DNA of 64,000 nt from Haloplanus sp. HW8-1 (GTDB lineage: Archaea > Halobacteriota > Halobacteria > Halobacteriales > Haloferacaceae), in contig NZ_CP098518.1 of NCBI RefSeq assembly GCF_023703795.1, positions 992,001 through 1,056,000 on the forward strand, written 5' to 3'. Numbering within the stretch: position 1 is the first letter of the stretch; every line of letters starts with the position of its first letter. The translations under genes and the position numbers were made by a program. Shown piece by piece: positions 49,793-63,262 of this stretch. The notes under the pieces were generated by a model that saw only the letters and a list, made by a program, of their open reading frames with translations, had not been told where the DNA came from and did no database searches.

Positions 49793-50050
49793 CTCGGACC
49801 CTCGCAGGGGACGATAGATGGGAGTCTCTCTTACTCTGCGGACGACACGACTCACCGGAGATCATGAGGTAGTATGAACATATAGTGAGCCGGTAATATT
49901 CTTTTTGATTGCGTAGAATCAAGGGATGTGACGCTGATACTGAAGAATCCTGCCGCTGTTGCGTGTCACTCTTCCGATAATGCTTGCTACCCTGACGTGC
50001 CGCTTCGAATCGCGTCATTTAACATCCGGCGCCGATTGCTACTCTGACGA

Positions 50051-50125
50051 GGGCGCTTAGCTCAGCCTGGACAGAGTGTCTGGCTTCGGACCAGATTGTC
50101 GCGGGTTCAAATCCTGCAGCGCCCA
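50051..50125 (+). tRNA. tRNA-Arg (anticodon TCG), integration target
   Basis: A 75-nt cloverleaf: acceptor GGGCGCT pairs with AGCGCCC plus discriminator A; anticodon stem TCTGG/CCAGA around the loop CTTCGGA gives anticodon TCG; T arm GCGGG-TTCAAAT-CCTGC. CCA not encoded. The last 13 bases plus one more recur at 60555-60568, so the gene is intact and forms the left boundary of an integrated element. Confidence 0.95.
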
Positions 50126-50126
50126 T
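50113..50126 (+). repeat. Left att repeat
   Basis: CCTGCAGCGCCCAT at the 3' end of tRNA-Arg, identical to 60555-60568. Confidence 0.8.
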
Positions 50127-50677
50127 TCGTTTTCCGAACGATCCAAATCCGACAGACGGCGGTGGGTCACTTATAAAATGACCCCCGGCACGCGGGTTTG
50201 ATTTCGTTCGGTTATCGAACGATTCTGAAACGCGGCGGTGCTGTCCTGCGGTTCGCTACATCTAAACGGGGCGAAGAAGGGCATAATCATTGGGCCGTTG
50301 AACCGAACAGTGGCTGTTGGTGCGGGATCTTGTTCGGGCGTCGTAGAACAACCAAAATAAGATCGAGGTGGAGAACGCGAATCTTTCACCCACGTTCTCA
50401 CAGTGTCTCGAAATAGGCTGGTATAAGTGGTGGCCAACGAAGCAACCCCCGCTGGTCGGGTCTATCGGCAGGCGTCTTCCGCCAGCTACCACGCGCACAA
50501 AGGTGCCGCTCCGGTAGTTACAGACGGTCAATTAGGAGACGAGTGATCATACCACGCTACTATATTCGGTGTGTCGCGGGCTCTGTTGAGGCGAATACGG
50601 CCCCGTCAAGTCGAGAGCCCATCTGTTCTGACACCAATCGAGCTTTGGCGTTGACTTGCACCACCGTCGCCGAATCC
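50126..50677. other. Gene-free stretch after tRNA-Arg with tandem diverged repeats
   Basis: No credible gene in 552 bases. Two diverged copies of a repeat with TTCGTT...CGAACGAT followed by a GGCGGTG block lie at about 50127-50170 and 50204-50245. The second, extended to 50304, aligns base for base in length with 60646-60750 after the distal att copy (both end in TAATCATT-GG-CGTTGA). These may be integrase arm sites or traces of repeated insertion. A GGGCTCTGTTGA string at 50578-50589 also occurs at 51063-51074. Confidence 0.55.
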
Positions 50678-51022
50678 TCAAACGCTGTCTCGAACCTTGT
50701 CCATCTTGCACTGAACGCAGAGATCGTCGAAGACACAACCAACACTATCGTACGGACAGACGTGCTCTTCAGTCTCGACCGAAAGTCGACGTTTTTGTTG
50801 TCGCCACTCTATCTCCCAGTCGTCGATCGACATCTCTGCCGAGGTAAACACGATATCACCCTCGCGGTTCTCGATCTTCGCGACGACTCCCGACTCGAGT
50901 TCGTCCTTCACGATCGCGATCGCTTCCTCGTACGACGAGCAGTCACGCCGCTCACGGCTATCATCTAACAGAACGACAGTGATCGACCTATCTGTCGTCT
51001 CGGTTGGGCCGAGTCCGGACAT
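50678..51022 (-). CDS. Small conserved protein with C-terminal cysteine cluster
   Basis: A 114-residue protein starting at 51022 (MSGLGPTETTDRSITVVLLD); longer upstream frame rejected because it runs through repeat sequence. The body (SSYEEAIAIVKDELESGVVA, then IVFTSAEMSIDDWEIEWRQQ) is alpha/beta, and the C-terminus has four cysteines (VCPYDSVGCVFDDLCVQCKM) able to hold zinc. Similar tails occur in haloarchaeal hypotheticals. Function unknown. It lies outside the ArsR-motif units. Confidence 0.6.
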   Translation of the reverse strand: MSGLGPTETTDRSITVVLLDDSRERRDCSSYEEAIAIVKDELESGVVAKIENREGDIVFTSAEMSIDDWEIEWRQQKRRLSVETEEHVCPYDSVGCVFDDLCVQCKMDKVRDSV

Positions 51023-51239
51023 CACTACAAGAGATCGCGAAGGAAGTGAATATAAATTCGATGGGCTCTGTTGAACCTTCAGTTGGTGATACGTTTCAGA
51101 AGTCGTGCTGAATACAGAGCGCGAGTCGGTCAGCGCCATCAGCACCGTTTCACGATCAAACCATACTCGTCTCAGCGGCGGGTACGCGAATCCCCGCAGT
51201 ATTTGAATATCGCGGGAGACGACACGCTTGGTGCCCTCC

Positions 51240-51527
51240 ATGATCGATGAGATCGTGTTCGGCGAGCCCTCCAGAGGGGTTGGGCTGGTTTTCCTCTGTG
51301 GTGCACTTCTGCTGGCCGGGCAACAGGCGTACTACGTCATTGTAGAAGGGGCGACGCCGTTCTATGCTAGCCTGTTTCTGATCGCTGGGATGGCCCTCTC
51401 AGGCATTGCCGAGTCCTTGCCGAAATCTCGCCGACGGGCTGCTGGTGCCCTGCGACTTACGGCGATCGCTGTACTGGTGAGTCTTCTCGTAATCGGCTTC
51501 GTCACGCCCGAACTCCTCTCAGCGTAA
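51240..51527 (+). CDS. Small three-helix membrane protein
   Basis: A 95-residue protein from the ATG at 51240 (MIDEIVFGEPSRGVGLVFLC); an in-frame TTG 12 bases earlier is less likely. Three hydrophobic segments: VGLVFLCGALLLAGQQAYYV, FYASLFLIAGMALSGIAESL and LRLTAIAVLVSLLVIGFVT. No family recognised. It is divergent from the Cys-cluster gene. Confidence 0.6.
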   Translation: MIDEIVFGEPSRGVGLVFLCGALLLAGQQAYYVIVEGATPFYASLFLIAGMALSGIAESLPKSRRRAAGALRLTAIAVLVSLLVIGFVTPELLSA

Positions 51528-51592
51528 TCGAGCCGGTCGGATTGAGTTCACCGCTCTTGCTACGAGTTCATTCCCACGGAGACTCTTTTGGA

Positions 51593-51646
51593 GTGACCGA
51601 AAAGACAAGAGGTGAAGTTGCTACACGCAACCTCTGTATCGGTCAC
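51593..51646. terminator. Stem-loop after the small membrane gene
   Basis: Outer arms GTGACCGA (51593-51600) and TCGGTCAC (51639-51646), inner arms GTTGC and GCAAC around TACAC. It lies 65 bases after the stop at 51527 and may terminate that transcript, or it may be part of the adjacent repeat. No T-run follows. Confidence 0.4.
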
Positions 51647-51712
51647 GCTCTTACTGACAGCTATCGGGCAGTTTGTTGATTCCGTGCTGAATAGAGAGTG
51701 CATATCTATCAG
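51621..51712 (+). repeat. Dispersed ~85 bp repeat, copy A
   Basis: Shares with 59189-59274 an almost unbroken block from CTCTGTATCGGTCACGCTC through GACAGCTATCGGGCAGTTTG to TGAATAGAGAG. Diverged relatives are at 59633-59718 and 63370-63455. Confidence 0.75.
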
Positions 51713-51926
51713 TAGGATACAGTACTTAAATTAATACGAACCCACAAATGTTGAAGTAAGCATCTCGTATATAAAGAGAACACACCCGTTATTGACTGAA
51801 TGATTAGCTAGGGGCCCAATTCACTTCTTTAGCTCAGAATTTTCGTTTTCATGTTCCCGTATCTTGATCGTTTTGTAGACCAACGGATAGGAGATGTCGC
51901 TGCCAGTCTGAGAGTTAACGCTTTAG

Positions 51927-51937
51927 TATATTCGCAT
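51927..51937 (+). promoter_or_regulatory. Candidate ArsR operator before the glutaredoxin-like gene
   Basis: TATATTCGCAT, 21 bases before the start codon at 51958. The same string precedes three other units of the island. It overlaps the region where a TATA box would lie, consistent with repression. Confidence 0.65.
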
Positions 51938-51957
51938 CTTCTCATCTATCGCAATCC

Positions 51958-52218
51958 ATGCTGGAACTCTATCAGTCCGAAGGCTGTCCACACTGCGCGA
52001 AGGTTAGAGCGAAACTGTCGGAGCTCGGTGTCTCGTACGTCGCCCACAATCCCCGTCTCCCCGGCGACGAGGGCGGTGACGTGGCCAACGACGTCACTTA
52101 CGATGAACTCACGGCAGGCGGCGAAGACCAGATCCCGTATCTTGTCGATACCGAGCGCGGCGTGACCATGTACGAGAGTGGCGACATCGTCGAATATCTC
52201 GAAGAACACTACGAATAA
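51958..52218 (+). CDS. Glutaredoxin / glutathione-S-transferase N-terminal-like thiol protein
   Basis: An 86-residue thioredoxin-fold protein MLELYQSEGCPHCAKVRAKL. The redox motif CPHC is at residues 10-13 and the cis-proline region is DQIPYLVD; YESGDIVEYLEEHY is the terminal helix. It would handle thiol-disulfide or persulfide exchange in the cytoplasm. It starts the first unit of the ArsR regulon and is followed after 32 bases by an unknown gene. Confidence 0.85.
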   Translation: MLELYQSEGCPHCAKVRAKLSELGVSYVAHNPRLPGDEGGDVANDVTYDELTAGGEDQIPYLVDTERGVTMYESGDIVEYLEEHYE

Positions 52219-52250
52219 CGGCTAATGTCGAAACATAGACCAGTACGTAC

Positions 52251-52940
52251 ATGATCGAAGGAGAACAGGAGGACCAGTCGGCTGTGTTCGAGGATATCCT
52301 AGAAACAACCGACGACGAGATCAAGGAATTGGCGACGTCCGGTGGTATCACGGCAGACACGCGAGGGGACCTGTCGGTCGATACGCTGTTACGCATCGCG
52401 CGGTGGCGGTCCGTCCAGAGCGCTGTCCTCTACAGTAACTGGGCCGACCAGCACCACGTTACGGGGCTGGACGCTGATGTCGCACTCGCCGCGGCGTGGA
52501 AGGCGGGCCGATCCGTCGATCAGTACGAGGCTGCGACCGATCACCTCAGAAGCCGCGGTGTCGATCCCGAACCCGCCGAATACGAGCTTCACGGCGAAAC
52601 GTTACAGTTCATGGCCGACCTGACCGACCCGGTCGCCCGGCTCACCGCAGGGTTCGTCGTCGCTCCCAAACTTCGCGTCGTCAAGGACAAGCAGGCGACA
52701 CTGGTCGCCACCGGTAACGCCGATCCACAAACAGCCAGCCTCTACCGAGATACCATCGTCCCACCCGAGGAAGACGCCATCGAACGTGGGAGACAGCTGC
52801 TTTCCCGGTATTTCGAAGCCGACGCCTCTGCCGTGACGACCGTCAAGGAGACCGCCGATGCGTTCCTCAATATCGCGTGGAAAGCCCAAGAACAGGCGAT
52901 GGACGAGACCGGCGAGGTCGATCCGAAAACGATCTGTTAG
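52251..52940 (+). CDS. Unknown all-helical protein of the sulfur/SAM island
   Basis: A 229-residue protein MIEGEQEDQSAVFEDILETT. It is predicted almost entirely helical, with ARWRSVQSAVLYSNWADQHH, AAWKAGRSVDQYEAATDHLR and EEDAIERGRQLLSRYFEAD. The E/H spacing loosely recalls ferritin-like or TenA-like four-helix bundles but I cannot identify metal ligands with confidence. Only one cysteine, the final residue. It is in the same unit as the glutaredoxin-like gene, and its stop overlaps the stop of arsR by four bases. Confidence 0.7.
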   Translation: MIEGEQEDQSAVFEDILETTDDEIKELATSGGITADTRGDLSVDTLLRIARWRSVQSAVLYSNWADQHHVTGLDADVALAAAWKAGRSVDQYEAATDHLRSRGVDPEPAEYELHGETLQFMADLTDPVARLTAGFVVAPKLRVVKDKQATLVATGNADPQTASLYRDTIVPPEEDAIERGRQLLSRYFEADASAVTTVKETADAFLNIAWKAQEQAMDETGEVDPKTIC

Positions 52941-53266
52941 CCGTTCTGTTCTGAGACGGCCGCGTCGTCGGCCATCTGGTCAAGCAACACGTCACGCATC
53001 GTGTTCATGCCCTCGATGATCCGCTCGTCGGCAATCGAGTAGTAATTATTGAGTCCTGCACCCCGCTTGGTTACGACGCCCTGATCGCGCATCTTCCGCA
53101 GGTGTTGGGAAACCGTTGGTTGGGAAACACCGGTCTCATCGCTGATCTCGCCCACACTGTATTCGCCGTCTTTCAGAAGATGGAGGATCCGCAGGCGCTT
53201 CGGATTCGAGAACATCTTACAGAACTCGGCGTGGCGCTCGTATAGGGCGTCGTCTGGATCGGTCAT
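52937..53266 (-). CDS. ArsR-family transcriptional regulator of the island
   Basis: A 109-residue winged-helix repressor starting at 53266 (MTDPDDALYERHAEFCKMFS). The HTH is KDGEYSVGEISDETGVSQPT, then VSQHLRKMRDQGVV, with wing GAGLNNYYSIAD. The only cysteine is Cys16 in FCKMFSNPKRLRIL, so the classical ArsR CxC metal site is missing; a single-Cys or dimer-bridged thiol sensor is possible. The inverted repeat 53273-53292 lies 6 bases upstream of its start, suggesting autoregulation. Confidence 0.88.
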   Translation of the reverse strand: MTDPDDALYERHAEFCKMFSNPKRLRILHLLKDGEYSVGEISDETGVSQPTVSQHLRKMRDQGVVTKRGAGLNNYYSIADERIIEGMNTMRDVLLDQMADDAAVSEQNG

Positions 53267-53272
53267 AGCTCT

Positions 53273-53292
53273 ATATTCGACCCCACGAATAT
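53273..53292. promoter_or_regulatory. Inverted-repeat operator before arsR
   Basis: ATATTCG (53273-53279), six-base spacer, CGAATAT (53286-53292), a perfect dyad sharing the ATATTCG core of the other island motifs. A second dyad CCCCACG/CGTGGGG (53281-53287 and 53310-53316) overlaps it. Confidence 0.7.
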
Positions 53293-53331
53293 GTGCGTTC
53301 GCTTCTGCCCGTGGGGAATCCACACCCTTAT

Positions 53332-53357
53332 TATATTCGCATATTCAAATATATTCT
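53332..53357 (+). promoter_or_regulatory. Candidate ArsR operator before the cysteine desulfurase unit
   Basis: TATATTCGCATATTC followed by AAATATATTC, giving three overlapping ATATTC cores. It is about 60-85 bases before the start at 53418 and between the divergent arsR and desulfurase genes. Confidence 0.65.
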
Positions 53358-53417
53358 GTACAGGGACGACACCGTTCAGCGTCCCGTAGGAACTCCCCCT
53401 ACACCCCGTTCACAAAT

Positions 53418-54536
53418 ATGATCTACATGGACCACGCCGCGACGACGTATCCCCACGAGGACGTTATCGAGGCGATGCAACCGTATCTGGAGACGCACAC
53501 GTTCAACCCGTCGGCGAGCTACGTGAGCGAGGAGGCCGCTGCCGTTGCCAACGCGCGCGAATCCGTTGCCGACCTTCTGGGAGCCGACCCGGGCCACATC
53601 GTATTCACCGGCGGCGGTAGCGAAGCGGACAATCTCGCGATCAAAGGTGTCGTCGACACGGTGGATGGGGACCACGTCGTCACGACGACAATCGAACACT
53701 CGGCGGTCATCGAGACCGCTGACTGGCTCGAGAATCACGGTGTCAGCGTCACGAGAGTGTCACCAGGACCAGACGGCCGTGTCGACCCTGATGACATCGA
53801 GGACGCCATCCGGCTGGACACGGTGATTGTGTCCGTCATGCACGCCAACAACGAGACCGGAGTCATTCAGCCACTCGAAGCCATCGGCCAAATAACGGAC
53901 GAGTACGATGTGTACTTCCATTCAGATACCGTCCAATCGGCCGGGAAGATTCCGGTCGACGTTGACGACCTCGGGCTGGACCTGGCAAGTCTGAGCGCTC
54001 ACAAGTTCTATGGGCCGAACGGCGTCGGCGCGCTATACGTTCGCGACGGCGTCGATATCGAATCCCTCATTCACGGTGGGGGCCAGGAACACGGTCTCCG
54101 AAGCGGCACCGAGAATGTCGCCGGACTCGTCGGGATGGGGAAAGCCGCTGACCTTGCGAGAGCCGATATGGACGAGCGTCACAGCCGACTGTCGCGACTG
54201 CGTGACGAATTCGTCGCCACCGTTCGGGAGACGACGGATGCTGAGATGATTGGCCATCCTGAGCATCGACTCCCAGGTTACGCGATGCTTTGCTTCCCGG
54301 GACAATCCGGGGCGCAACTAATCGATGCCCTTGCGGACCACGACATCGCCGTCTCCGGTGGCTCGGCCTGTCACTCGGGCGGCCCGTCACCATCACGGGT
54401 CCTCATCGAGATGGGCGTCGACCCGGACTTGGCGATGGGTGCCGTCCGCTTCTCGATGGGCCGAGAGACGACCGACGAAGACGTTGCGTACGTCACCGAA
54501 AAGCTACAAGAAGTGCTTCACGAAGTCCCGGCATGA
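53418..54536 (+). CDS. Cysteine desulfurase (NifS/IscS-like)
   Basis: A 372-residue PLP enzyme that takes sulfur from cysteine and holds it as a persulfide. MIYMDHAATTYPHEDVIEAM is the family N-terminus, HANNETGVIQPLEAIG and HSDTVQSAGKIPVDV are conserved, the PLP lysine is Lys196 in SLSAHKFYGPNGVG, and the catalytic cysteine is Cys318 in SGGSACHSGGPSPS. No scaffold (IscU) gene is adjacent; instead a methyltransferase overlaps its stop by four bases. This points to a dedicated, not housekeeping, sulfur donor. Confidence 0.93.
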   Translation: MIYMDHAATTYPHEDVIEAMQPYLETHTFNPSASYVSEEAAAVANARESVADLLGADPGHIVFTGGGSEADNLAIKGVVDTVDGDHVVTTTIEHSAVIETADWLENHGVSVTRVSPGPDGRVDPDDIEDAIRLDTVIVSVMHANNETGVIQPLEAIGQITDEYDVYFHSDTVQSAGKIPVDVDDLGLDLASLSAHKFYGPNGVGALYVRDGVDIESLIHGGGQEHGLRSGTENVAGLVGMGKAADLARADMDERHSRLSRLRDEFVATVRETTDAEMIGHPEHRLPGYAMLCFPGQSGAQLIDALADHDIAVSGGSACHSGGPSPSRVLIEMGVDPDLAMGAVRFSMGRETTDEDVAYVTEKLQEVLHEVPA

Positions 54537-55147
54537 GCGACGTCGAGAGCTTCGTGCGGTTCTGTGAGAGCGAGTTCGGCTCGGCGGTGATGGACCGTGA
54601 GGCCGCATACATCGAGCAATATGTAGCTCCCGATGATCAGATCCTCGACGTCGGCTGTGGCATCGGCTCGCTCGAAGAGCGATTCACCGACTACGATATC
54701 GTCGGCATCGACATATCAGAGGCGATGGTACGGACGGCACGGCAGCGTACTCCTGCGCCGTTTCTGGTCGGCGATGCGCGAACACTTCCGGTACGAACTG
54801 ATGCAGTGGACGCCGTCGTCTTCGTGGCGACGCTGGAGTTCATTTCGGAGGTCGATGTTGTTCTCCAGGAAGCAACTCGTGTGCTCCGACCGGGCGGCAG
54901 AATCGTCGCGCTGATACTAAATACGCGGTCCGAGTACGTCCAGTCCAATCTCCAGCGAGACGGATCGTACTTCCAGCAGATGGTTCATCGCGACTCCGAG
55001 GCGCTGGCCGACAGAGTGCTGGCCACCGTCGACGGAACACAGGAGTACTTCCTGGGCATCGCCGACGAAACCGTCGTCGAGAGCAGCGATCCAACCACCG
55101 CTGCGATTACTGCGATTGTGGGGTCTTCTATCGGAGATTCAAAATGA
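54533..55147 (+). CDS. SAM-dependent methyltransferase (class I)
   Basis: A 204-residue methyltransferase from 54533 (MSDVESFVRFCESEFGSAVM). Motif I is ILDVGCGIGSLEERF, followed by YDIVGIDISEAMVRTARQRT, GDARTLPVRTDAVDAVVFVA and LRPGGRIVALILN. The acceptor is unknown. Its two N-terminal-half cysteines do not match the three-Cys pattern of ArsM arsenite methyltransferases. Coupled to cysteine desulfurase (ATGA overlap), it might methylate a thiol, sulfide or metalloid. Confidence 0.85.
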   Translation: MSDVESFVRFCESEFGSAVMDREAAYIEQYVAPDDQILDVGCGIGSLEERFTDYDIVGIDISEAMVRTARQRTPAPFLVGDARTLPVRTDAVDAVVFVATLEFISEVDVVLQEATRVLRPGGRIVALILNTRSEYVQSNLQRDGSYFQQMVHRDSEALADRVLATVDGTQEYFLGIADETVVESSDPTTAAITAIVGSSIGDSK

Positions 55148-55177
55148 CCTTTGCGACAGCATTCCACGGAGAACCTG

Positions 55178-55996
55178 ATGGCTGATTCTGACGAGCGATC
55201 TGACTCGCCGCTTTTCGAGGCGAAGCGGTACGATGAACCATCGGTCTTTACCCCGGAATCCCTGATCCGAGAAGCGCGTCGCCAGAAAGACCTCCCTGAG
55301 CGATCCGTCCCCGACATCTGTGTCCTCGATCCCGATGGGGACATCGTCCGACACTTGGTATCGACTGGCCGTGCCGAAGCGGACACGACGTGGCCCGGCT
55401 ATCACACGGAACTCTACAGGTTCGAGCTGAACGGCGAGGAGGTCGGAATAATCGGTTGTGCGGTCGGCGCGTCGTTCGCGGTCCTGGTCGCCGAACAGCT
55501 GTTCGCCGCCGGCTGTCAGTTTCTCGTGAGCGTGACTTCCTCCGGCCAAATCGTCCCGAAGGACAACCCACCGTATTTCGTGCTCATCGAAAGAGCACTA
55601 CGCGACGAGGGGACTAGTCACCACTACCACTCCCCAGCCCGGTATGCAACCCTGGACGCCGATCTCCGTGATCGGGTCGCATCAGCCTGTCAGTCCGCCA
55701 CCCGCCCAGTCTACACAGGCGCGACCTGGACGACGGACGCGCCGTTTCGAGAGACGGAAACGGCCATCGAGCGAGCTCGCTCGGTGGACATTCTCGCGGT
55801 CGAGATGGAAGCTGCCGCGCTCTATACGTTCGCCGATGAACGGAACCAGCCCGTCGTGTGTTTTGCCTACGTGACTAACGAGATGGGACAGGGAGATGGC
55901 GACTTCGAGAAAGGCGATGCGAACGGGAGTACTGCAGCCTTAGAGATTATTGAGTCCACCATTAGAGGCTGGAGATCCTCGGACACGAGTGAATGA
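55178..55996 (+). CDS. Nucleoside phosphorylase family protein
   Basis: A 272-residue PNP/UDP-phosphorylase-fold protein from the ATG at 55178 (MADSDERSDSPLFEAKRYDE); an upstream in-frame TTG is less likely. GIIGCAVGASFAVLVAEQLF and LVSVTSSGQIVP form the phosphate/base site, and VEMEAAALYTFADERN (about residues 207-222) is the ribose-binding Glu-Met-Glu motif. In this context adenosine or methylthioadenosine released from SAM is a plausible substrate. It is 31 bases after the methyltransferase. Confidence 0.83.
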   Translation: MADSDERSDSPLFEAKRYDEPSVFTPESLIREARRQKDLPERSVPDICVLDPDGDIVRHLVSTGRAEADTTWPGYHTELYRFELNGEEVGIIGCAVGASFAVLVAEQLFAAGCQFLVSVTSSGQIVPKDNPPYFVLIERALRDEGTSHHYHSPARYATLDADLRDRVASACQSATRPVYTGATWTTDAPFRETETAIERARSVDILAVEMEAAALYTFADERNQPVVCFAYVTNEMGQGDGDFEKGDANGSTAALEIIESTIRGWRSSDTSE

Positions 55997-56031
55997 TAGA
56001 GCGCACATCACAGGGTGCGGACTAATTTTAT

Positions 56032-56044
56032 CATATTCGCATAT
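56032..56044 (+). promoter_or_regulatory. Candidate ArsR operator before the methionine adenosyltransferase unit
   Basis: CATATTCGCATAT followed by TATAAT. It is about 168 bases before the start at 56212, so the transcript would have a long leader (about 130-150 bases) unlike most haloarchaeal genes. Confidence 0.6.
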
Positions 56045-56211
56045 TATAATCACTACGCAGCATTGATTCAGCCAGAAGTCGCGTTCCAACGGGAGCTCTG
56101 AATTGTGAGCTATGGTCATCAGGGTCGAATCGATTCCCTACAGAGCGATCGAACATCGTCTCAACCTCGACCCTTCACAAGCCGCGGGAGCCAAACGTAG
56201 TCACGCTACCA

Positions 56212-57420
56212 ATGATGACAGAACGGAATATCCACATCGAGGAAGCATCGCACAAGCCAGTCGAATCTCAATACACGGAGATCGTTGAGCGAAAAGGAAT
56301 CGGTCACCCAGATTCGATCTCTGATGGAGTTGCCGAACACGTTGCGCGACGGCTCTCACAAGAGTACCTCGACCGGTTCGGACGCGTGCTCCATTTCAAC
56401 ACCGACGAAACGCAGCTCGCCGCGGGAGAATCCGCTCCGGAGTATGGCGGTGGTGAGATGCAATCGCCGATCCATCTCCTAATCGTGGGACGGGCGACGA
56501 AGCGGTTCGAAGGCGAACGAATCCCGACTGAGTCGATCGCCCTCGACGCTGCGCGAGAATATCTCGCCGAACACATCCCGCGACTCGACTTCGGCACCGA
56601 CATCATCGTCGATACGAAACTCGGTGAGGGAAGTGGCGACCTGACAGGGTTCTTCAGAGAAGATGGCCCCGACGTGCCAGTGGCTATGGACACCAGCTTC
56701 GGGGTTGGTCACGCACCGTTGACGGAGACGGAACAACTCGTATTGAATACCGAGCGCCGCTTGAACGAAGACTACGCAGCCGAGAATCCCGAGATCGGCC
56801 CCGATATCAAGATCATGGGGAACCGCGAGGGCGATCGGATCGTTCTGACTGTTGCGGCGGCAATCATCGACGAGTACGTAGAAAGTTTTGAGGCGTACAA
56901 GGAGGCCGTAGCCGGCGTCCGAGAGTACGTCGAGGGAATCGCCACGGAGTATACAGACCGGGAGGTTGCTGTCACAGTCAACGCCGCAGACGAATACGAT
57001 TCTGAATCGGTGTACCTCACCGTCACGGGAACCTCGGCAGAGCACGGTGATGACGGGTCGGTCGGACGAGGAAACCGCGTCAACGGCCTGATCACCCCCA
57101 ATCGCTCGATGTCGATCGAGGCGTCGAGCGGCAAGAACCCGGTGAACCACGTCGGGAAGATCTACAACCTGTTATCAACCGAGATCGCACAGGCCGTCGT
57201 TGCGGAGGTCGACGGGATCGAGGATCTCCGAATCCGGCTGTTAAGCCAGATCAACACGCCGATCGACGACCCACAGGTTGCCGACGCTCACGTCGTTCTT
57301 GAGGACGGTCTCACCGTCGACGAGGTCGAAGCGGACGTCACGTCGATCATCGACGGCCAGCTGGCAAACGTGACGGATGTGACGGAACGCGTCATCAACG
57401 GCGACCTCACGACGTTCTAA
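56212..57420 (+). CDS. mat: Archaeal-type methionine adenosyltransferase (SAM synthetase)
   Basis: A 402-residue enzyme making S-adenosylmethionine from methionine and ATP. The archaeal family stretches are VERKGIGHPDSISDGVAEHV, HFNTDETQLAAGES, MDTSFGVGHAPLTETEQLVL, DIKIMGNREGDRIVLTVAAA and RGNRVNGLITPNRSMSIEAS with GKNPVNHVGKIYN. A second ATG three bases on is also possible. Codon use and GC are lower than in core genes, and an essential chromosomal copy must be expected elsewhere, so this is probably an accessory paralogue. It is followed after 25 bases by the DUF62-type gene. Confidence 0.92.
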   Translation: MMTERNIHIEEASHKPVESQYTEIVERKGIGHPDSISDGVAEHVARRLSQEYLDRFGRVLHFNTDETQLAAGESAPEYGGGEMQSPIHLLIVGRATKRFEGERIPTESIALDAAREYLAEHIPRLDFGTDIIVDTKLGEGSGDLTGFFREDGPDVPVAMDTSFGVGHAPLTETEQLVLNTERRLNEDYAAENPEIGPDIKIMGNREGDRIVLTVAAAIIDEYVESFEAYKEAVAGVREYVEGIATEYTDREVAVTVNAADEYDSESVYLTVTGTSAEHGDDGSVGRGNRVNGLITPNRSMSIEASSGKNPVNHVGKIYNLLSTEIAQAVVAEVDGIEDLRIRLLSQINTPIDDPQVADAHVVLEDGLTVDEVEADVTSIIDGQLANVTDVTERVINGDLTTF

Positions 57421-57445
57421 CGGAGACACCACTGGTACCACTCAC

Positions 57446-58219
57446 ATGAGCACCTTCATCCACTTGATCGCCGACTACGGCATCGGCGATCCGGCATTCT
57501 CTGAAGTCATCCATCGACTGAAATACGAGGATTCCTCGCTGGAAATCCACCCAACGACGGTTCCACCGCTCTCGACTGTCGCGACCGGGTTCTGGATCGA
57601 ACAGTTGGGACTTCATAATCCGCCCTTCGATGACCTCCTCATCTACTCGAATACGGCGCCCAGAACTGACGATCCGGGACCGCGTGATGCGAATGAAGGG
57701 GGAGACCTCTGTTATGCCCACCTCGAATCGGGTCTGGAGGTCGTCGCTGTCGACGCCGGCTACAACTTCTCGTTCGTCAAAGAGGAGATAGCGACCCTGC
57801 GGCGAATCGACGTCGCGATCAGTGGCTCACAATTCCGTTCCAGGGACTATTTCCCGGAGAAGGTGGCCGAGATCGCCAACGGTGATCTGTCGTCGGTTGC
57901 CGAAGAGAAACGGCTCGACGAAATCCCGGAGTCACCACACCAGACCGTCTGTCACGTGGACGGATACGGGAACATCAAGACCTCCATCCGGGCGTCCGAG
58001 TTCGGTCTCGATCAGGATTGTGTCGAGATCGACCTCGGCGGCCAGAGCCACACGGTCTCGGTTGCCAGTGGTGTCTTCGGTGTCGAGCAGGGGAAGCTCG
58101 TCCTCGCTCCCGGGTCGACCGGTGGCGACGATAGTTACCTGGAGATCTCTCAGCGGGGAGGCTCCGCTGCGAACCGCTTCGGGGATCCGTCTCCGGGAGA
58201 TCAAATCGAGTTCTCGTGA
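57446..58219 (+). CDS. DUF62-family (SAM hydrolase/halogenase-like) protein, divergent
   Basis: A 257-residue protein beginning MSTFIHLIADYGIGDPAFSE. The N-terminal DYGxGD, the middle VVAVDAGYNFSFVKEEIATL, the FRSRDYFPEKVAEIANGDLS segment, CHVDGYGNIKTSI, and the C-terminal YLEISQRGGSAANRFGDPSP match the two-domain fold of SAM hydroxide adenosyltransferases (SAM to adenosine plus methionine). The catalytic His normally found as FHGRD appears as FRSRD, and the usual DPGVG loop is DAGYN, so activity may differ. It is coupled to SAM synthetase. Confidence 0.8.
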   Translation: MSTFIHLIADYGIGDPAFSEVIHRLKYEDSSLEIHPTTVPPLSTVATGFWIEQLGLHNPPFDDLLIYSNTAPRTDDPGPRDANEGGDLCYAHLESGLEVVAVDAGYNFSFVKEEIATLRRIDVAISGSQFRSRDYFPEKVAEIANGDLSSVAEEKRLDEIPESPHQTVCHVDGYGNIKTSIRASEFGLDQDCVEIDLGGQSHTVSVASGVFGVEQGKLVLAPGSTGGDDSYLEISQRGGSAANRFGDPSPGDQIEFS

Positions 58220-58305
58220 TGTGTTCGAGTGACTCTGGGTCGTGATTGTTGAAGCGAGTCGCCAGGGGTGAATTGATGATTGGATGGACGTGGACCAGAT
58301 TTAAC

Positions 58306-58317
58306 TATATTCGCATA
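58306..58317 (+). promoter_or_regulatory. Candidate ArsR operator before the Cys-rich microprotein
   Basis: TATATTCGCATA, 12 bases before the ATG at 58330 and overlapping the expected promoter. Confidence 0.65.
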
Positions 58318-58329
58318 ATACAATCTATT

Positions 58330-58494
58330 ATGAGGTGCAGACGAACCGCTCCACGGCATCGTGGACACGGCTGTGGCTGCTGTTGTTGTGGTCCCCAGAG
58401 ACGCAAGCCGGAACGTCTCGAAGGGCGAAGGGGGATCGACGAGAAACTGGAACGGATCGAACAACGACTCGAAGCGCCAGAGCGCGACGGGTAG
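58330..58494 (+). CDS. 54-residue Cys-rich microprotein
   Basis: Starting at 58330 it reads MRCRRTAPRHRGHGCGCCCC, then GPQRRKPERLEGRRGIDEKL, ERIEQRLEAPERDG. The His/Cys cluster HGHGCGCCCC-like core (five Cys in six positions) could bind a soft metal or carry persulfide; the C-terminal part is a charged helix. The start sits directly behind the regulon motif and the stop is two bases before the next start, which supports coding. I know no characterised homologue. Confidence 0.62.
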   Translation: MRCRRTAPRHRGHGCGCCCCGPQRRKPERLEGRRGIDEKLERIEQRLEAPERDG

Positions 58495-58496
58495 CA

Positions 58497-58787
58497 ATGT
58501 CCCGAGACCTGCTGGTGCGGGCGATCGACGCGGTCGAGACAGCCCGTGACGCAACCACGAGTAGTGACAAACGAGATCGACTTGAGCAGCTCGGATCACA
58601 GCTACAGGCACAGGCTGACCGCGATGCGACCCCGGCACTCGGAGCCCTCGATAGAATTCAGACGAAGCTCCGAGAGATCGAGGATGACACAGACGAGGAA
58701 ACTGTCACAGACGCCCTAGCAGAAGCGAGGGAACACATCCTCTCGTTTCTCGGAACGCTCGACGACCGCGGTATGAAACAACACTGA
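58497..58787 (+). CDS. DUF7553-like helical protein
   Basis: A 96-residue protein from 58497 (MSRDLLVRAIDAVETARDAT). Three charged helices: DKRDRLEQLGSQLQAQADRD, ALDRIQTKLREIEDDTDEE and VTDALAEAREHILSFLGTL. The pattern matches small haloarchaeal proteins of the DUF7553 type as I recall. No function known. It follows the Cys-rich gene by two bases. Confidence 0.7.
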   Translation: MSRDLLVRAIDAVETARDATTSSDKRDRLEQLGSQLQAQADRDATPALGALDRIQTKLREIEDDTDEETVTDALAEAREHILSFLGTLDDRGMKQH

Positions 58788-58826
58788 GGAGGCACAGGTT
58801 CCTCGACCGGCGATTCCTGATCCAGT

Positions 58827-59150
58827 ATGCAACTCGCACTCGTTCTCGAAACGAACGATCCCGAATGGATTTGGAATGTGTTCCGGCTCGCGAACAAGGC
58901 GCTTGATGCCGGCCATACCGTCGAGACGTTTCTCGTCAATGATGGCGTCGAAGCTCCCGATGCTGAGCACGAAAAGTTCAATCCCCACGGGGCATTGTTG
59001 AAATATACTAAGAACGGAGGCGAGTTGGCTGCTTGTGGAACGTGTATGGATTCGAGAGGGTTGGAGGAAGACGAACTCCGGGCACGATCATCGATGGACG
59101 AATATCTTCGAATCAGTGAGGATGCTGATAAGGTCCTCACCTTCAGTTAG
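58827..59150 (+). CDS. DsrE/DsrF-family sulfur-carrier protein
   Basis: A 107-residue protein MQLALVLETNDPEWIWNVFR. The DsrE fold with FLVNDGVEAPDAEHEKFNPH and the conserved cysteines in GGELAACGTCMDSRGLEEDE are seen. DsrE-type proteins carry persulfide sulfur between enzymes, fitting a partner role for the cysteine desulfurase of the island. It is 39 bases after the DUF7553-like gene, probably in the same transcript. Confidence 0.87.
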   Translation: MQLALVLETNDPEWIWNVFRLANKALDAGHTVETFLVNDGVEAPDAEHEKFNPHGALLKYTKNGGELAACGTCMDSRGLEEDELRARSSMDEYLRISEDADKVLTFS

Positions 59151-59188
59151 ACAACTCGGATAGACGGCTAAACGCCGCCATCGTGCTG

Positions 59189-59274
59189 ACTACATACTCT
59201 GTATCGGTCACGCTCTTACTGACAGCTATCGGGCAGTTTGTTGATTCCGTGCCGAATAGAGAGCACATATTCAG
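59189..59274 (+). repeat. Dispersed ~85 bp repeat, copy B
   Basis: Near-identical to copy A over about 65 bases (CTCTGTATCGGTCACGCTC to GAATAGAGAG). It marks the right edge of the ArsR regulon as copy A marks the left. Confidence 0.75.
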
Positions 59275-59357
59275 CAAGTCTACTGTACTCTGGGGAGATC
59301 GGTACCTATTCGATATTCTGCCAAATGCTTATTCGGTTTCCCCACCTCCTTCAAACA

Positions 59358-59522
59358 ATGAGTCTATTCAAGAAAGCCGGAAAGACGTTCGAGGAAGCGA
59401 AACAGACGTTCGTAGAGGGGGAGGAGGCCGAGTACGTCTGCCGATCCTGTGAGGAGCCAGTAGCTGACAACTATGAGTACTGTTCCCACTGCGGCGAAGA
59501 GACGGTTGAACCAGTAGAGTGA
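59358..59522 (+). CDS. 54-residue zinc-ribbon protein
   Basis: From the ATG at 59358: MSLFKKAGKTFEEAKQTFVE, then GEEAEYVCRSCEEPVADNYE and YCSHCGEETVEPVE. An amphipathic N-terminal helix is followed by a CxxC...CxxC zinc ribbon. Common in haloarchaea, function unknown. A weak TATTCGATATTC (59307-59318) lies 40 bases upstream. Confidence 0.72.
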   Translation: MSLFKKAGKTFEEAKQTFVEGEEAEYVCRSCEEPVADNYEYCSHCGEETVEPVE

Positions 59523-59632
59523 CCTTCTGGCCCGGAATTTCCCGTCGTTGGGTATCGATCGATCTGTTCATCCCCTCTTAACGCCTGTTTCGGTCATCGT
59601 AGTCGGAATATCCAATCGGATTTTGCTGACTA

Positions 59633-59718
59633 GATCCTCTGTATCTCGCAGCATCTACCTGACAACTTCTGTATAGGTGATACCGGCGTCCGCAAAATGA
59701 AGGGCACATATTCAGCGG
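59633..59718 (+). repeat. Dispersed repeat, diverged copy C
   Basis: Begins TTGCTGACTAGATCCTCTGT as in the family consensus and ends GGGCACATATTCAGC like copy B; the middle is diverged. Confidence 0.55.
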
Positions 59719-59788
59719 ATACTGACGATGAGTTGGCAGAGGAACTCAGGCGGAACGGATTCGACGTGTGAACTGATCCACTATTCCG

Positions 59789-60205
59789 TCAGCGTGTGTC
59801 GAACGAGTCGATCACGTCACTCGTCGAGTACCGCTCGACTACGTCCTGTTCGTCGAAGTCGGAATCGTCACTCCAGATGGCCGCACCACTGGCGATCGCA
59901 CAAGCTAGGTAGAGCACGTCGCTGGGGTCGATGTCGCCGATCGCTGCGTTCGCCTCCTCAATAGCCGGATGGAACTCGTCGACGGGAACAATCTCGATGT
60001 ACTGGAACAGGAGGTCGACGAACTGCGCTACTCGGTTCGGGTCCATCCCTGATTTCTCCGCGATCAACTCCTCGTAGTTCTCGATTTCGTCGTGGACGAA
60101 CGCGGGAGTCAGGAGGTCCGGGTCTAGCGTGACGATGAGTTCCCACGTTTTCGAATCGGCGACGAGCGCGGAGATGACGACGTTGGCATCGACGACCAGC
60201 CTCAT
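59789..60205 (-). CDS. vapC: PIN-domain toxin (VapC-like)
   Basis: A 138-residue PIN nuclease. The acidic active-site positions are kept: Asp in MRLVVDANVVISAL, Glu in HDEIENYEEL, Asp in DIDPSDVLYLACAI and Asp in IWSDDSDFDEQ. It would cleave RNA (tRNA or rRNA in known VapCs). The upstream antitoxin frame is broken, see next entry. It sits 350 bases from the right att copy. Confidence 0.85.
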   Translation of the reverse strand: MRLVVDANVVISALVADSKTWELIVTLDPDLLTPAFVHDEIENYEELIAEKSGMDPNRVAQFVDLLFQYIEIVPVDEFHPAIEEANAAIGDIDPSDVLYLACAIASGAAIWSDDSDFDEQDVVERYSTSDVIDSFDTR

Positions 60206-60214
60206 TCGTCGGCT

Positions 60215-60444
60215 CTACGTCGGTTCCTCGTCAACACGCTTCCGCCCGCTCTCGTTGATTTTGTCGGCGATATCCCGAACGTCGCTCTCGGTGGGGTCGC
60301 TTTCGCTGGTAAGTTCGTCCATCACTTCGAGCGCGTCGATCTTTTTTCGATAGCCTGCCGCGTGACCTCGCTCCAGTTGATCTCCGGATGCTTCTCCATT
60401 CGCTCTTTGAGGTTGTCGTCGACATTGACCGTGATCGAAGGCAT
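60215..60444 (-). pseudogene. vapB: VapB-type antitoxin, frameshifted
   Basis: The frame from 60444 reads MPSITVNVDDNLKERMEKHP, EINWSEVTRQAIEK and then goes out of frame, stopping at 60322 after 40 residues. One extra base in the run of six T (plus strand, 60342-60347) would restore a 76-residue antitoxin (EVMDELTSESDPTESDVRDI and so on) ending at 60215, ten bases before vapC. The ribbon-helix-helix DNA-binding part is intact and the toxin-binding part is lost. A sequencing error in the homopolymer is the main alternative. Confidence 0.8.
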
Positions 60445-60554
60445 ACAGGATACTATGAAATCACAGAATACTGTGTCTTTTGATGTGTCCAGAAACCCTC
60501 GATTTCGACTGTTTCAGGCCCAGCAAGGGAAATCGTTCAGCGACCGACCGAGCG

Positions 60555-60568
60555 CCTGCAGCGCCCAT
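60555..60568 (+). repeat. Right att repeat
   Basis: CCTGCAGCGCCCAT, identical to the tRNA-Arg 3' end at 50113-50126, and followed by a diverged copy of the sequence that follows the tRNA. Confidence 0.78.
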
Positions 60569-60746
60569 CGCCGATTTCTCGTTCGTAATCGCACGACAAC
60601 GGCGGGGTGGTCGTCGATATCATCGTCTCTGACTACAATGTCGTTGATTTCGTTCAGCTACCGAACGATTCCAACAGACGGCGGTTTCCTCCCGTGGTTC
60701 GCTGTCTCTACGGCGTGGTGCACGGCCGCTAATCATTAGGTCGTTG

Positions 60747-60837
60747 ACCATCACTCGGTCACGAGCAACTGGATCCCAGCAACTTCGAGAACTGGAGTGG
60801 TTGGTAACGGAACTCCGTACCGTCGCCGAGTGATGGT
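60747..60837. repeat. 91 bp MITE-like inverted-repeat element
   Basis: Perfect 12-bp terminal inverted repeats ACCATCACTCGG (60747-60758) and CCGAGTGATGGT (60826-60837), with partial pairing continuing a few bases inward. No reading frame inside and no clear target duplication. Confidence 0.55.
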
Positions 60838-61149
60838 TCCGACGTAGGGGATCCGAGATACCTGGGTGGTACCTGAAAACGAAGTATCAGAGTCGTGGTT
60901 CGATCGTCGGATCTACTGGCAGTTGTTAGTTACGGGCGTTCCACATCGAGAAGCTACTAGTAGACGCAAGTCGGGGTGCACTGGCAATCAGAGCCGATTC
61001 TCCAAATCAAATCCCTCGATGTCTGATATGATTTTGGAGGGCTGTTGAATACAGAGCGCATGTCGCGCACCGAGGCAACCACTAGCAGAAGCGTAATCAG
61101 TCAATACAGAATCCGGATACAGTAGTCGAGACCAATTCTCTGAGAGTAA

Positions 61150-61158
61150 TTATAAATA
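61150..61158 (+). promoter_or_regulatory. TATA box of the sensor gene
   Basis: TTATAAATA, 41-49 bases before the ATG at 61199, implying a short leader. Confidence 0.5.
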
Positions 61159-61198
61159 GAATACAAAAGGTTATTAGTTTTGATTACAATGACAACAC

Positions 61199-63262
61199 AT
61201 GGTTAGCTCCGTCCACGTTCTCCATGTGGACGACGACCCCAGTTTTGGAGAGTTGGTGGCGGAGTTCCTCGACCGAGAGGGTGACCAATTCGAGATCAGT
61301 ACTGCGACCAGCGCCAACGAGGGTCTCGAATACCTCACCGATGACAGTCACGCAGTCGATTGTATTGTGAGCGATTTTGATATGCCACACACGAGCGGGA
61401 TCGAATTCCTCGAAGACGTCCGCGACGACCATCCCGAACTCCCGTTCATTTTATTCACCGGCAAAGGCTCCGAAGATGTCGCTAGCGACGCTATCTCGGC
61501 TGGTGCAACCGATTACCTCCAGAAAGGTGGCGGTACCGACCAATACACGGTACTCGCGAATCGGATTCACAATGCCGTCGATCAGTATCGGTCCCGACGC
61601 CGAGCCGCTGAACACGAGCGTATCACTGATGTAATGCGAGATCTCCATCGTGCCCTCGTCTACGCTGACACCGTCGAGAAGATTGAACGTGGCGTCTGCG
61701 AGATACTGAGCGACGCTGACCCGTATCTGACAGCCTGTATCGCGGGTGTCGATCCCAACACGATGCAGATTGAGCCACGAACCTGGGCCGGGAAGGATGC
61801 CGGCTATTTCGAGACGCTAGATATGTGTATCGACGCGAACTCTCCAGGTCGTCACGCCCCCGGTGGCCGGGCCTATCACGAGCGTGAGATTGCCATCTCT
61901 CAGAACATTCCGGACGATCCAGAGTACGAAGAATGGCGCAAACAGGCCATCAAGCGAGGCTTCCGGGCGCTCGCAGTCGTCCCATTAGAGCATAACGATG
62001 GCCTCTACGGTCTCTTGGCGGTGTTTGCCGACCGCCGCTACGCGTTCGATGAGCAGGAACAGGAACTACTCGCAGAATTGGGGGACGATATCGCTCACGC
62101 GATGCATGCACAACAGGTGCAGGCTGATCTACGAAACCGTGACCGAGCGATCAATGAGGCGCCCGTCGGAGTTACTATCACCGACCCCGAACAACCGGAC
62201 AATCCGACAGTTTATGTCAACGATGAGTTTACTAAGGTGACCGGATATACACCGAACGATATCCTCGGTGAGAACCACCACCGGATACTGCAGGGGCCGG
62301 AGACCAACGAAGAACCGGTGGCGGAAATACGAGAGGCCATCGATTCCAAAGAACGCGTGACGGTCGAGCTTCGAAATTATCGGAAGAACGGAGACCTGTT
62401 CTGGAATCGTGTCTCGGTCGCTCCAGTCTACGACAGCGAGGGAGAACTGGCAAATTACATCGGATTTCAAGAAGGAGTCACCGACCGCAAGGAGTCCGAA
62501 CAACAGTTACGTCGAAACGAACTTCGATTTGAGGCGCTGTTCAACGACCCGAATCTGCTGGTCGGTCTACTGGAAACCGATGGAACAGTCGTTGACGTGA
62601 ACGAGACGGCGGTAGAGTACATCGAGGCCGACCGAGACGCCGTGATCGGCGAACCGTTCTGGACGACACCGTGGTGGGGCGACGAGATGCGACCGGTCAT
62701 CAGCGAGAAGGTCGAACAGGCGGCAGCGGGACGATACGTCGAATATGACGCCGATCTGACGAAGCCGAACGGTAACCAATATAGCGTCACTGGCGTGATT
62801 CGCCCCGTAACAGACGAGAGTGGTGACGTGGTTTCGCTTATCGTGTCCGCCCGTGACGTGACGGATCGGGTTAGCCGCGAGCGGATACTCGATTCAATCC
62901 TCGAACACACAACGGTGCCGATGTTTCTGAAAAGTCGGGCTGGAGAGTACATTTTGGTTAATGACGCGTTCCGAAGTCTGTTCAACCTTGACGGCACAGA
63001 TGTGCACGGACAGACAGATGCCGATCTCTTTGATCGGGAGATGGCGTCTGAGGTACAAAAGAACGACAGACGAGTCCTCGAAACGGGTGACCCCCTCGAA
63101 ATCGAAGAGCGAATCATCGTTGACGGGGACGAGCGGGTTTATTTGAGTTCGAAGACACCGGTCTACGATATTGGAACCGCCTCGGATCCGGACAGTCCAG
63201 TTGCTATTTTCGGCGTTGCAAGCGATATTACTGACCGAGGCCGACCTCAATCCGATCAGTAG
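61199..63262 (+). CDS. Receiver-GAF-PAS-PAS-PAS sensor protein without kinase domain
   Basis: 687 residues. Receiver domain 1-120 with VDDDPSFGE, the phospho-acceptor Asp in CIVSDFDMPHTSG and Lys in YLQKGG; GAF about 150-305; PAS1 about 315-430, strongly LOV-like (RILQGPETNEEPVAEIREAI, NYRKNGDLFWNRVSVAPV) but with His where the flavin-adduct Cys should be; PAS2 about 445-560; PAS3 about 570-680 (FLKSRAGEYILVNDAFRSLF). The protein ends in DITDRGRPQSDQ with no HisKA or HATPase, so it is truncated or signals through a partner. Confidence 0.88.
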   Translation: MVSSVHVLHVDDDPSFGELVAEFLDREGDQFEISTATSANEGLEYLTDDSHAVDCIVSDFDMPHTSGIEFLEDVRDDHPELPFILFTGKGSEDVASDAISAGATDYLQKGGGTDQYTVLANRIHNAVDQYRSRRRAAEHERITDVMRDLHRALVYADTVEKIERGVCEILSDADPYLTACIAGVDPNTMQIEPRTWAGKDAGYFETLDMCIDANSPGRHAPGGRAYHEREIAISQNIPDDPEYEEWRKQAIKRGFRALAVVPLEHNDGLYGLLAVFADRRYAFDEQEQELLAELGDDIAHAMHAQQVQADLRNRDRAINEAPVGVTITDPEQPDNPTVYVNDEFTKVTGYTPNDILGENHHRILQGPETNEEPVAEIREAIDSKERVTVELRNYRKNGDLFWNRVSVAPVYDSEGELANYIGFQEGVTDRKESEQQLRRNELRFEALFNDPNLLVGLLETDGTVVDVNETAVEYIEADRDAVIGEPFWTTPWWGDEMRPVISEKVEQAAAGRYVEYDADLTKPNGNQYSVTGVIRPVTDESGDVVSLIVSARDVTDRVSRERILDSILEHTTVPMFLKSRAGEYILVNDAFRSLFNLDGTDVHGQTDADLFDREMASEVQKNDRRVLETGDPLEIEERIIVDGDERVYLSSKTPVYDIGTASDPDSPVAIFGVASDITDRGRPQSDQ

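Follow-up and report, generated by a model that had tools for sequence, protein, structure and literature searches.

The metK2-HAT locus and its island

The window, by which we mean the whole stretch of 64,000 nucleotides analysed, belongs to a haloarchaeal chromosome, an origin with which its kin in homology searches agree. It carries a gene that we call HAT-like, preceded by a gene for S-adenosylmethionine (SAM) synthetase and surrounded by the following features (evidence in brackets):

51928..51941, + strand: island motif before the glutaredoxin/GST-N gene at 51958 (motif search)
52937..53323, - strand: ArsR-family (HTH_5) regulator, candidate reader of the motif (domain search, related loci)
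53333..53346, + strand: island motif between the arsR-type gene (-) and the cysteine desulfurase gene (+) (motif search)
53418..54536, + strand: cysteine desulfurase of the IscS/NifS type (domain searches)
54530..55147, + strand: class I methyltransferase (domain searches)
55151..55996, + strand: nucleoside phosphorylase superfamily protein, PNP_UDP_1 (domain searches)
56033..56046, + strand: island motif ATATTCGCATATTA in the metK2-HAT promoter region (motif search)
56212..57420, + strand: metK2, archaeal S-adenosylmethionine synthetase (domain searches, comparison to the second MetK)
57446..58219, + strand: HAT-like gene, 257 aa, assigned to an NxAPR/QFRSRD branch with the DUF62/fluorinase fold (PF20257, model, alignment, tree)
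58307..58320, + strand: island motif, 25 nt before the ATG of a Cys-rich ORF (motif search)
58332-58493, + strand: Cys-rich 54-aa ORF, followed by DUF7553 and DsrE genes (ORF, motif position)
58827..59150, + strand: DsrE-family protein adjoining the island (domain search)

The metK2 product is 66% identical to the other MetK of the genome, and its gene lies 25 nt before the HAT-like gene, with which it likely forms an operon. The coupling to SAM synthetase made in a preliminary description of this DNA stands for this locus, where only these 25 nt separate the metK2 stop from the HAT-like start, and is missing from all 27 other distinct loci; MetK coupling as a trait of the family (0/27) was consequently rejected. 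An Rfam search of the region 50.0-60.5 kb gave nothing but a tRNA-Arg, and hence no riboswitch match in the metK2 leader.

The island motif, ATATTCGCAT, is present in four copies, all inside 51928-58320. Allowing up to two mismatches, the window has four matches to the 14-mer ATATTCGCATAWTA, where 0.02 would be expected. Across the 3.84-Mb genome, the pattern ATATTCGCATMWT has four matches, on one strand and all within 6.4 kb, compared with 0.04 to 0.24 expected from composition and none for the reversed control; as the pattern was built from the four sites, this exact count is in part a result of its design. The metK2-HAT island is probably regulated, the ArsR protein being the putative reader of the motif. 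The content of the island comprises glutaredoxin-like, u229, arsR, cysteine desulfurase, methyltransferase, nucleoside phosphorylase, Cys-rich ORF, DUF7553 and DsrE genes, and related islands occur in two other genomes (G220 and G290).

Relatives of the island phosphorylase were found at 20 loci, among which only L158 and L159 have the motif; these two also hold strong relatives of the ArsR, glutaredoxin and u229 proteins. They are without metK2-HAT, and in them the phosphorylase gene is directly followed by a region resembling the fourth motif-bearing promoter of the window (scores of 70.5 and 76.5, as opposed to 27.5 and 22.0 against the metK2 promoter). From this arrangement metK2-HAT appears to have entered an already existing island, at a site bearing its own copy of the motif.

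Some further observations concern the surroundings of the gene. The Cys-rich ORF looks leaderless, starts 25 nt past the motif start, contains a CGCCCCG cluster and had no Pfam match; a similar small ORF was seen by eye after the motif in L158 and L159. That its product binds metal is a guess. The u229 gene (52251-52937, 229 aa) likewise had no Pfam match; in L158 and L159, relatives with 82-85% identity accompany the ArsR-type island. A PIN-domain protein encoded beside the island (59789-60205, - strand) is a possible toxin of a toxin-antitoxin pair. Within 50000-63000 of the window, the GC content falls from about 0.69 to 0.46-0.63 after the tRNA-Arg gene (50051-50125), which suggests a genomic island.

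Fold and active-site positions

The sole Pfam domain of the HAT-like protein is the C-terminal PF20257 (SAM_HAT_C; 33.9 bits, cut-off 25.5). The N-terminal domain PF01887 gave no match in Pfam at E 0.1, and among relatives it reached 25.5 bits at best against a cut-off of 26.3; NCBIfam and PADLOC had no match for the protein. A canonical DUF62 protein is encoded separately in the same genome (C1:358747-359151). Such a copy is present in 58 of 59 haloarchaea searched, and the canonical haloarchaeal proteins, including the one of this genome, keep HGRD in 31/31 and DPGVG..R in 30/31 cases.

The fold markers of the family recognized in the preliminary description are borne out by structure prediction. 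An AlphaFold2 model built from a 10-sequence alignment had a pLDDT of 85.4 and a pTM of 0.86, with poor loops at residues 74-79, 81-84 and 127-130; the loop 74-84 and residues 127-130, mostly with pLDDT below 50, adjoin the proposed nucleophile site. With an E threshold of 0.001, Foldseek retrieved 40 chains, and all 40 listed are DUF62-type, SalL, ClA or fluorinase structures. In VIA-align, 21 DUF62/SalL/ClA/fluorinase entries scored Z 19.5-24.3, the next and unrelated entry having Z 7.5. The best match was 2zbv (Z 24.3, rmsd 2.9, 237 aligned residues), and the overlay on PH0463 gave Z 22.4 (rmsd 2.7, 233 aligned), that on fluorinase 5lmz Z 21.0 (rmsd 2.9, 239 aligned) and that on SalL Z 20.6 (rmsd 3.5, 241 aligned). 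The model of a phage homologue (pLDDT 83.3) behaved similarly, with Z from 22.6 to 17.3 for the superfamily and then 7.6. In profile-profile comparisons with hhalign, the probability of a match to canonical DUF62 was 96-99.7.

As described in PMC4859513, D68-R75-H127 is the water-activating triad of the hydrolases, the halide residues are T80-S158 in FlA and Y70-G131 in SalL, and PxNGL, IDxxFGN, D16 and N215 are common across the superfamily. The corresponding segments of the HAT-like gene, all on the + strand, are:

57644..57664: YSNTAPR, residues 67-73, at the place of DPGVG (alignments; register ambiguous)
57752..57766: DAGYN, residues 103-107, a PDNGL-type loop and not DPGVG (phmmer, hmmsearch, hhalign, MAFFT)
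57833..57847: FRSRD, residues 130-134, at the place of FHGRD (phmmer, hmmsearch, hhalign, MAFFT)
57956..57973: VDGYGN, residues 171-176, adenine-site motif IDxxFGN (alignment; role of the motif as described in PMC4859513)

The replacement of FHGRD by FRSRD had already been pointed out, and all readable alignments agree on it: phmmer to MJ1651, hmmsearch, 3/3 MAFFT modes and 12/12 hhalign runs, these 12 being the runs with readable residue numbers (four '-M 50' runs, which number columns, were set aside). By alignment, R131 corresponds to His127 of PH0463 and Tyr157 of FlA, and S132 to Gly128 and Ser158, respectively. The second replacement proposed, DAGYN for DPGVG, has to be corrected. DAGY falls on the PDNGL loop in phmmer, hmmsearch and the three MAFFT modes, as well as in 6/12 readable hhalign runs (G105 on G92), being unaligned or elsewhere in the other six. 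What follows the DPGVG-bearing strand is instead the segment I-Y-S-N-T-A-P-R (residues 66-73). Its register is ambiguous, since the counterpart of Asp68 varies between Y67, N69, A71 and a gap from one method to another, and no conserved acid lies opposite Asp68 in any register. R73 could stand for Arg75, on which it falls in only 3/12 readable hhalign runs.

These positions were followed in 44 distinct sequences, namely that of the window, 21 from other haloarchaea, 10 from cyanobacteria, 9 from CPR/MAG genomes and 3 from phages; a fourth, truncated phage copy was left out of the alignment. The strand of each locus was picked by the presence of FRS, a choice by which 0/47 were lost, yet this check itself leans on FRS. 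There are 32 invariant columns, among them D10, N69, A71, P72, R73, Q129-F-R-S-R-D134, D172, N176 and K178, all 44/44, as well as G175 of VDGYGN; none is a histidine. NxAPR and QFRSRD are thus kept throughout haloarchaea, cyanobacteria, Patescibacteria/MAGs and phages, while the hydrolase triad Asp68-Arg75-His127 is missing in 44/44, with an arginine at the place of His127 in every sequence. Because no invariant Asp or Glu lies between residues 54 and 128, the aspartate of the triad has not merely moved by a few residues. A canonical triad displaced to other positions, against which the preliminary description was to be checked, was not found among the 32 invariant columns, which include neither a histidine nor an acidic residue in the DPGVG region. 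The ligand residues, on the other hand, are kept: D10/D7/D16, D172/D179/D210 and N176/N183/N215 (the last of each in FlA), with D10, D172 and N176 invariant.

A Y-x-x-T spacing had raised the idea of a fluorinase-like T80 at T70, which was dropped, as 15/44 sequences have Cys, Val or Ala in its place. No alignment puts T70 directly on Thr80 of FlA; in the three hhalign runs with Y67 on Asp68, T70 falls on Val71 of PH0463, which is likely the place of Thr80, and the idea is thereby weakened.

Branch position, selection and distribution

The tree, which comprises 49 rows, splits the family (27 rows) and the remote CPR proteins (8 rows) from canonical DUF62 and FlA with support of 100/100, and the family rows alone have 86/87; long branches (FlA, several remote CPR rows) leave the details unsure, and FlA is the only halogenase. 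The earlier suggestion of a separate branch within the family agrees with this split and with the full conservation of the alternative motifs. It is therefore well supported by sequence comparison that the HAT-like protein is a member of a deep, stand-alone branch of the DUF62/fluorinase superfamily, apart from both hydrolases and fluorinase.

Among weaker CPR matches, 13 could be read, three of them canonical (L083, L085 and L089) and 10 of the new type. Their frames were picked by FRS/FHGRD/FDGRD/PFRG, and L086 and L087, with none of these, were dropped, so that among the counts for the remoter CPR proteins only the retention of NxA[PS]R in 9/10 sequences of the new type is independent of frame choice. 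The remoter proteins (L077-L082, L084, L088, L090 and L091) have NxAPR and QFRS-like motifs. Three full-length ones were scanned for PF20257, which was above the cut-off, below it, or without a match.

The HAT-like gene is under purifying selection. Median dN/dS was 0.13 in 91 haloarchaeal pairs, 0.15 in 3 pairs and 0.07 in cyanobacteria, where it was computable for 10/21 pairs and not for the other 11/21. A decayed hydrolase is ruled out by these values (0.07-0.15) together with the invariant alternative motifs. Two broken copies of the family were seen, L075 with two stops and the frameshifted L032.

Homologues 35-64% identical to the window protein occur in 22/391 Halobacteria genomes, counting its own genome and one partial copy; none of the 8 other genomes of its genus in this search carries the gene. 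In 392 genomes of the phylum, 4 matched at E 1e-10, none of them outside the order of the window. Homologues are present in 10/292 genomes of the cyanobacterial phylum, in 6/379 genomes of a CPR phylum with E values no higher than 4.6e-60 (besides 15 weak matches) and in four IMG/VR phage contigs. Canonical DUF62 accompanies the HAT-like gene in all 4 haloarchaea and in the one cyanobacterium searched, and in 0/4 CPR/MAG genomes above the cut-off. A bacterial-type MetK was found in 4/8 gene-bearing CPR/MAG genomes, which are perhaps incomplete, the archaeal type being outside this search. No conserved neighbour was seen in 19 cyanobacterial/CPR loci, except among 3 near-identical cyanobacteria. 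Since neighbours are not conserved across the family, gene context would speak for SAM in the genome of the window only.

The four phage contigs are uncultured and have T4-type replication genes; the scanned proteins of L057, L058 and L059 include DNA polymerase, UvsX-like recombinase, DnaB-like helicase and dCMP deaminase. A transglycosylase-like gene lies upstream of the HAT-like gene on L056-L058 (domain scan for L057 only), and a DNA methyltransferase gene lies behind it on L058 and L059. PADLOC found the methyltransferase weakly like part of a Mads protein. As this neighbouring enzyme would need SAM, its presence speaks against a total depletion of host SAM by the phage protein. Neither the phage query nor P0001 matched any of 50,697 phage records, which gave no named viral relative, and P0001 had no match in plasmids; BFVD gave no structure match at E 0.001 or better, and PHROGs gave none for P0001, L056 and L034 and one weak match for L058 (E 0.045).

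Possible function of the branch

Compared with the DUF62 hydrolases PH0463, MJ1651 and StDUF62, the HAT-like protein shares the whole-chain fold, PF20257, the ribose Asp and the adenine FGN, and differs in the loss of the triad, in NxAPR and QFRSRD, in its separate branch and in the undetected PF01887 of the window protein. With FlA and SalL it shares the fold, a Ser at the place of Ser158 of the fluorinase and the absence of a D-R-H triad; however, it has an Arg at the place of Tyr157 and no clear match to Thr80 or Tyr70 (FlA sequence aligned), and FlA groups with canonical DUF62 across the 100/100 branch. Because K178 replaces Trp217 of FlA, the pocket may also be different on its methionine side. 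The branch thus has neither nucleophile residue set in full, only the Ser158-like S132, and keeps the adenosyl contacts, as would be expected if SAM were bound and the nucleophile differed. No description of the branch was found in the literature searched, from which subscription papers were mostly outside.

We consider it about an even chance (roughly 0.5) that the HAT-like protein is a SAM-binding adenosyltransferase whose nucleophile site has been rebuilt to suit anions. SAM, its putative ligand, or a close 5'-adenosyl ligand would be bound through D10, D172 and N176, the contacts to ribose and adenine retained from the ancestor. The triad would be replaced by a polar, positive set made up of Asn69 and Arg73 of the NxAPR loop together with Arg131 and Ser132; in the model a helix starts at R131, and these last two residues would thus lie where the helix begins whose fluorinase counterpart bears Ser158, a residue that binds fluoride. 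A nucleophile that is small and probably anionic could be held at this Arg/Ser/Asn set and attack C5' of SAM in an SN2 reaction, giving methionine and a 5'-substituted adenosine. The use of a different nucleophile, one of the possibilities raised at the outset, fits the conserved pocket. In this haloarchaeon the gene would be transcribed with its own metK2 from a motif promoter common to an ArsR-type island linked to sulfur and thiols.

A SAM nucleophile enzyme and a nucleoside phosphorylase make up the FlA/FlB type of pair. A PNP_UDP_1 gene is also found here, 215 nt upstream of metK2-HAT, but this phosphorylase stays in the islands where the HAT-like gene is absent, so their pairing may be accidental. 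As for the phage SAM lyases, they have in common with the HAT-like family the idea of a SAM-directed enzyme and the occurrence in phages, where they defeat restriction (PMC7877911). Nevertheless, T3 SAMase and Svi3-3 are described as having a PII-like trimeric fold and lyase chemistry (PMC12255297, PMC7877911), whereas the HAT-like fold matches DUF62, and a PII-like ferredoxin fold was absent among the VIA-align matches listed for the window protein and the phage homologue.

The same fold and adenosyl contacts would also suit a protein that still hydrolyses SAM with another water-activating set, for instance Asn69/Arg131, perhaps with another preference between (R,S)- and (S,S)-SAM. Epimer choice is reported to vary in the superfamily, StDUF62 hydrolysing mainly (R,S)-SAM and FlA1 preferring (S,S)-SAM (PMC12120602), and co-expression with metK2 would suit the removal of a wrong epimer. 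We regard this reading as doubtful, as most genomes with the gene also have canonical DUF62, which would often make another ordinary hydrolase superfluous, and the triad that a review describes as strictly conserved in, and confined to, DUF62 proteins (PMC10491745) is missing in all 44 sequences.

The charge of the pocket, to which the invariant R73, R131 and K178 contribute, raises the idea of another adenosyl ligand with a phosphate or other anion, such as a nucleotide or a SAM conjugate, cleaved or held by the two extra arginines. SAM-AMP is described as a signal for which phages encode lyases (PMC12255297). This seems improbable, considering that charge is its sole basis, that the places of D210 and N215 of fluorinase are kept, and that no type III CRISPR gene was seen beside the HAT-like gene, nor did PADLOC recognize the protein. 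Less likely still, and in our view very unlikely, is a non-catalytic protein that senses or stores SAM or an adenosyl compound: the lost triad and the metK2 neighbour in a regulated island would agree with it, but R131, S132, N69 and R73 are strictly conserved in unrelated lineages and phages, and the gene stands alone, with no partner domain.

The adenosyltransferase reading extends, tentatively and with much less confidence, to the whole NxAPR/QFRSRD branch, which might be a third class of SAM cleavage, transferring adenosyl to an anion or soft nucleophile that is neither halide nor water, spread over archaea, cyanobacteria, Patescibacteria and phages. Phosphate, yielding AMP, would be one example, and sulfur or metalloid species would suit an island with ArsR, cysteine desulfurase, glutaredoxin and Cys-rich proteins. 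A genetic test could be made with the window copy, which has its own SAM synthetase in an island that is probably regulated, and the 44 natural sequences are ready targets for assays. The literature searched describes two kinds of active site for the superfamily, the D-R-H triad of the hydrolases and the halide pocket of FlA or SalL; new chemistry is plausible for the HAT-like branch, and a third strictly conserved active site, if true, would suggest a new role for SAM.
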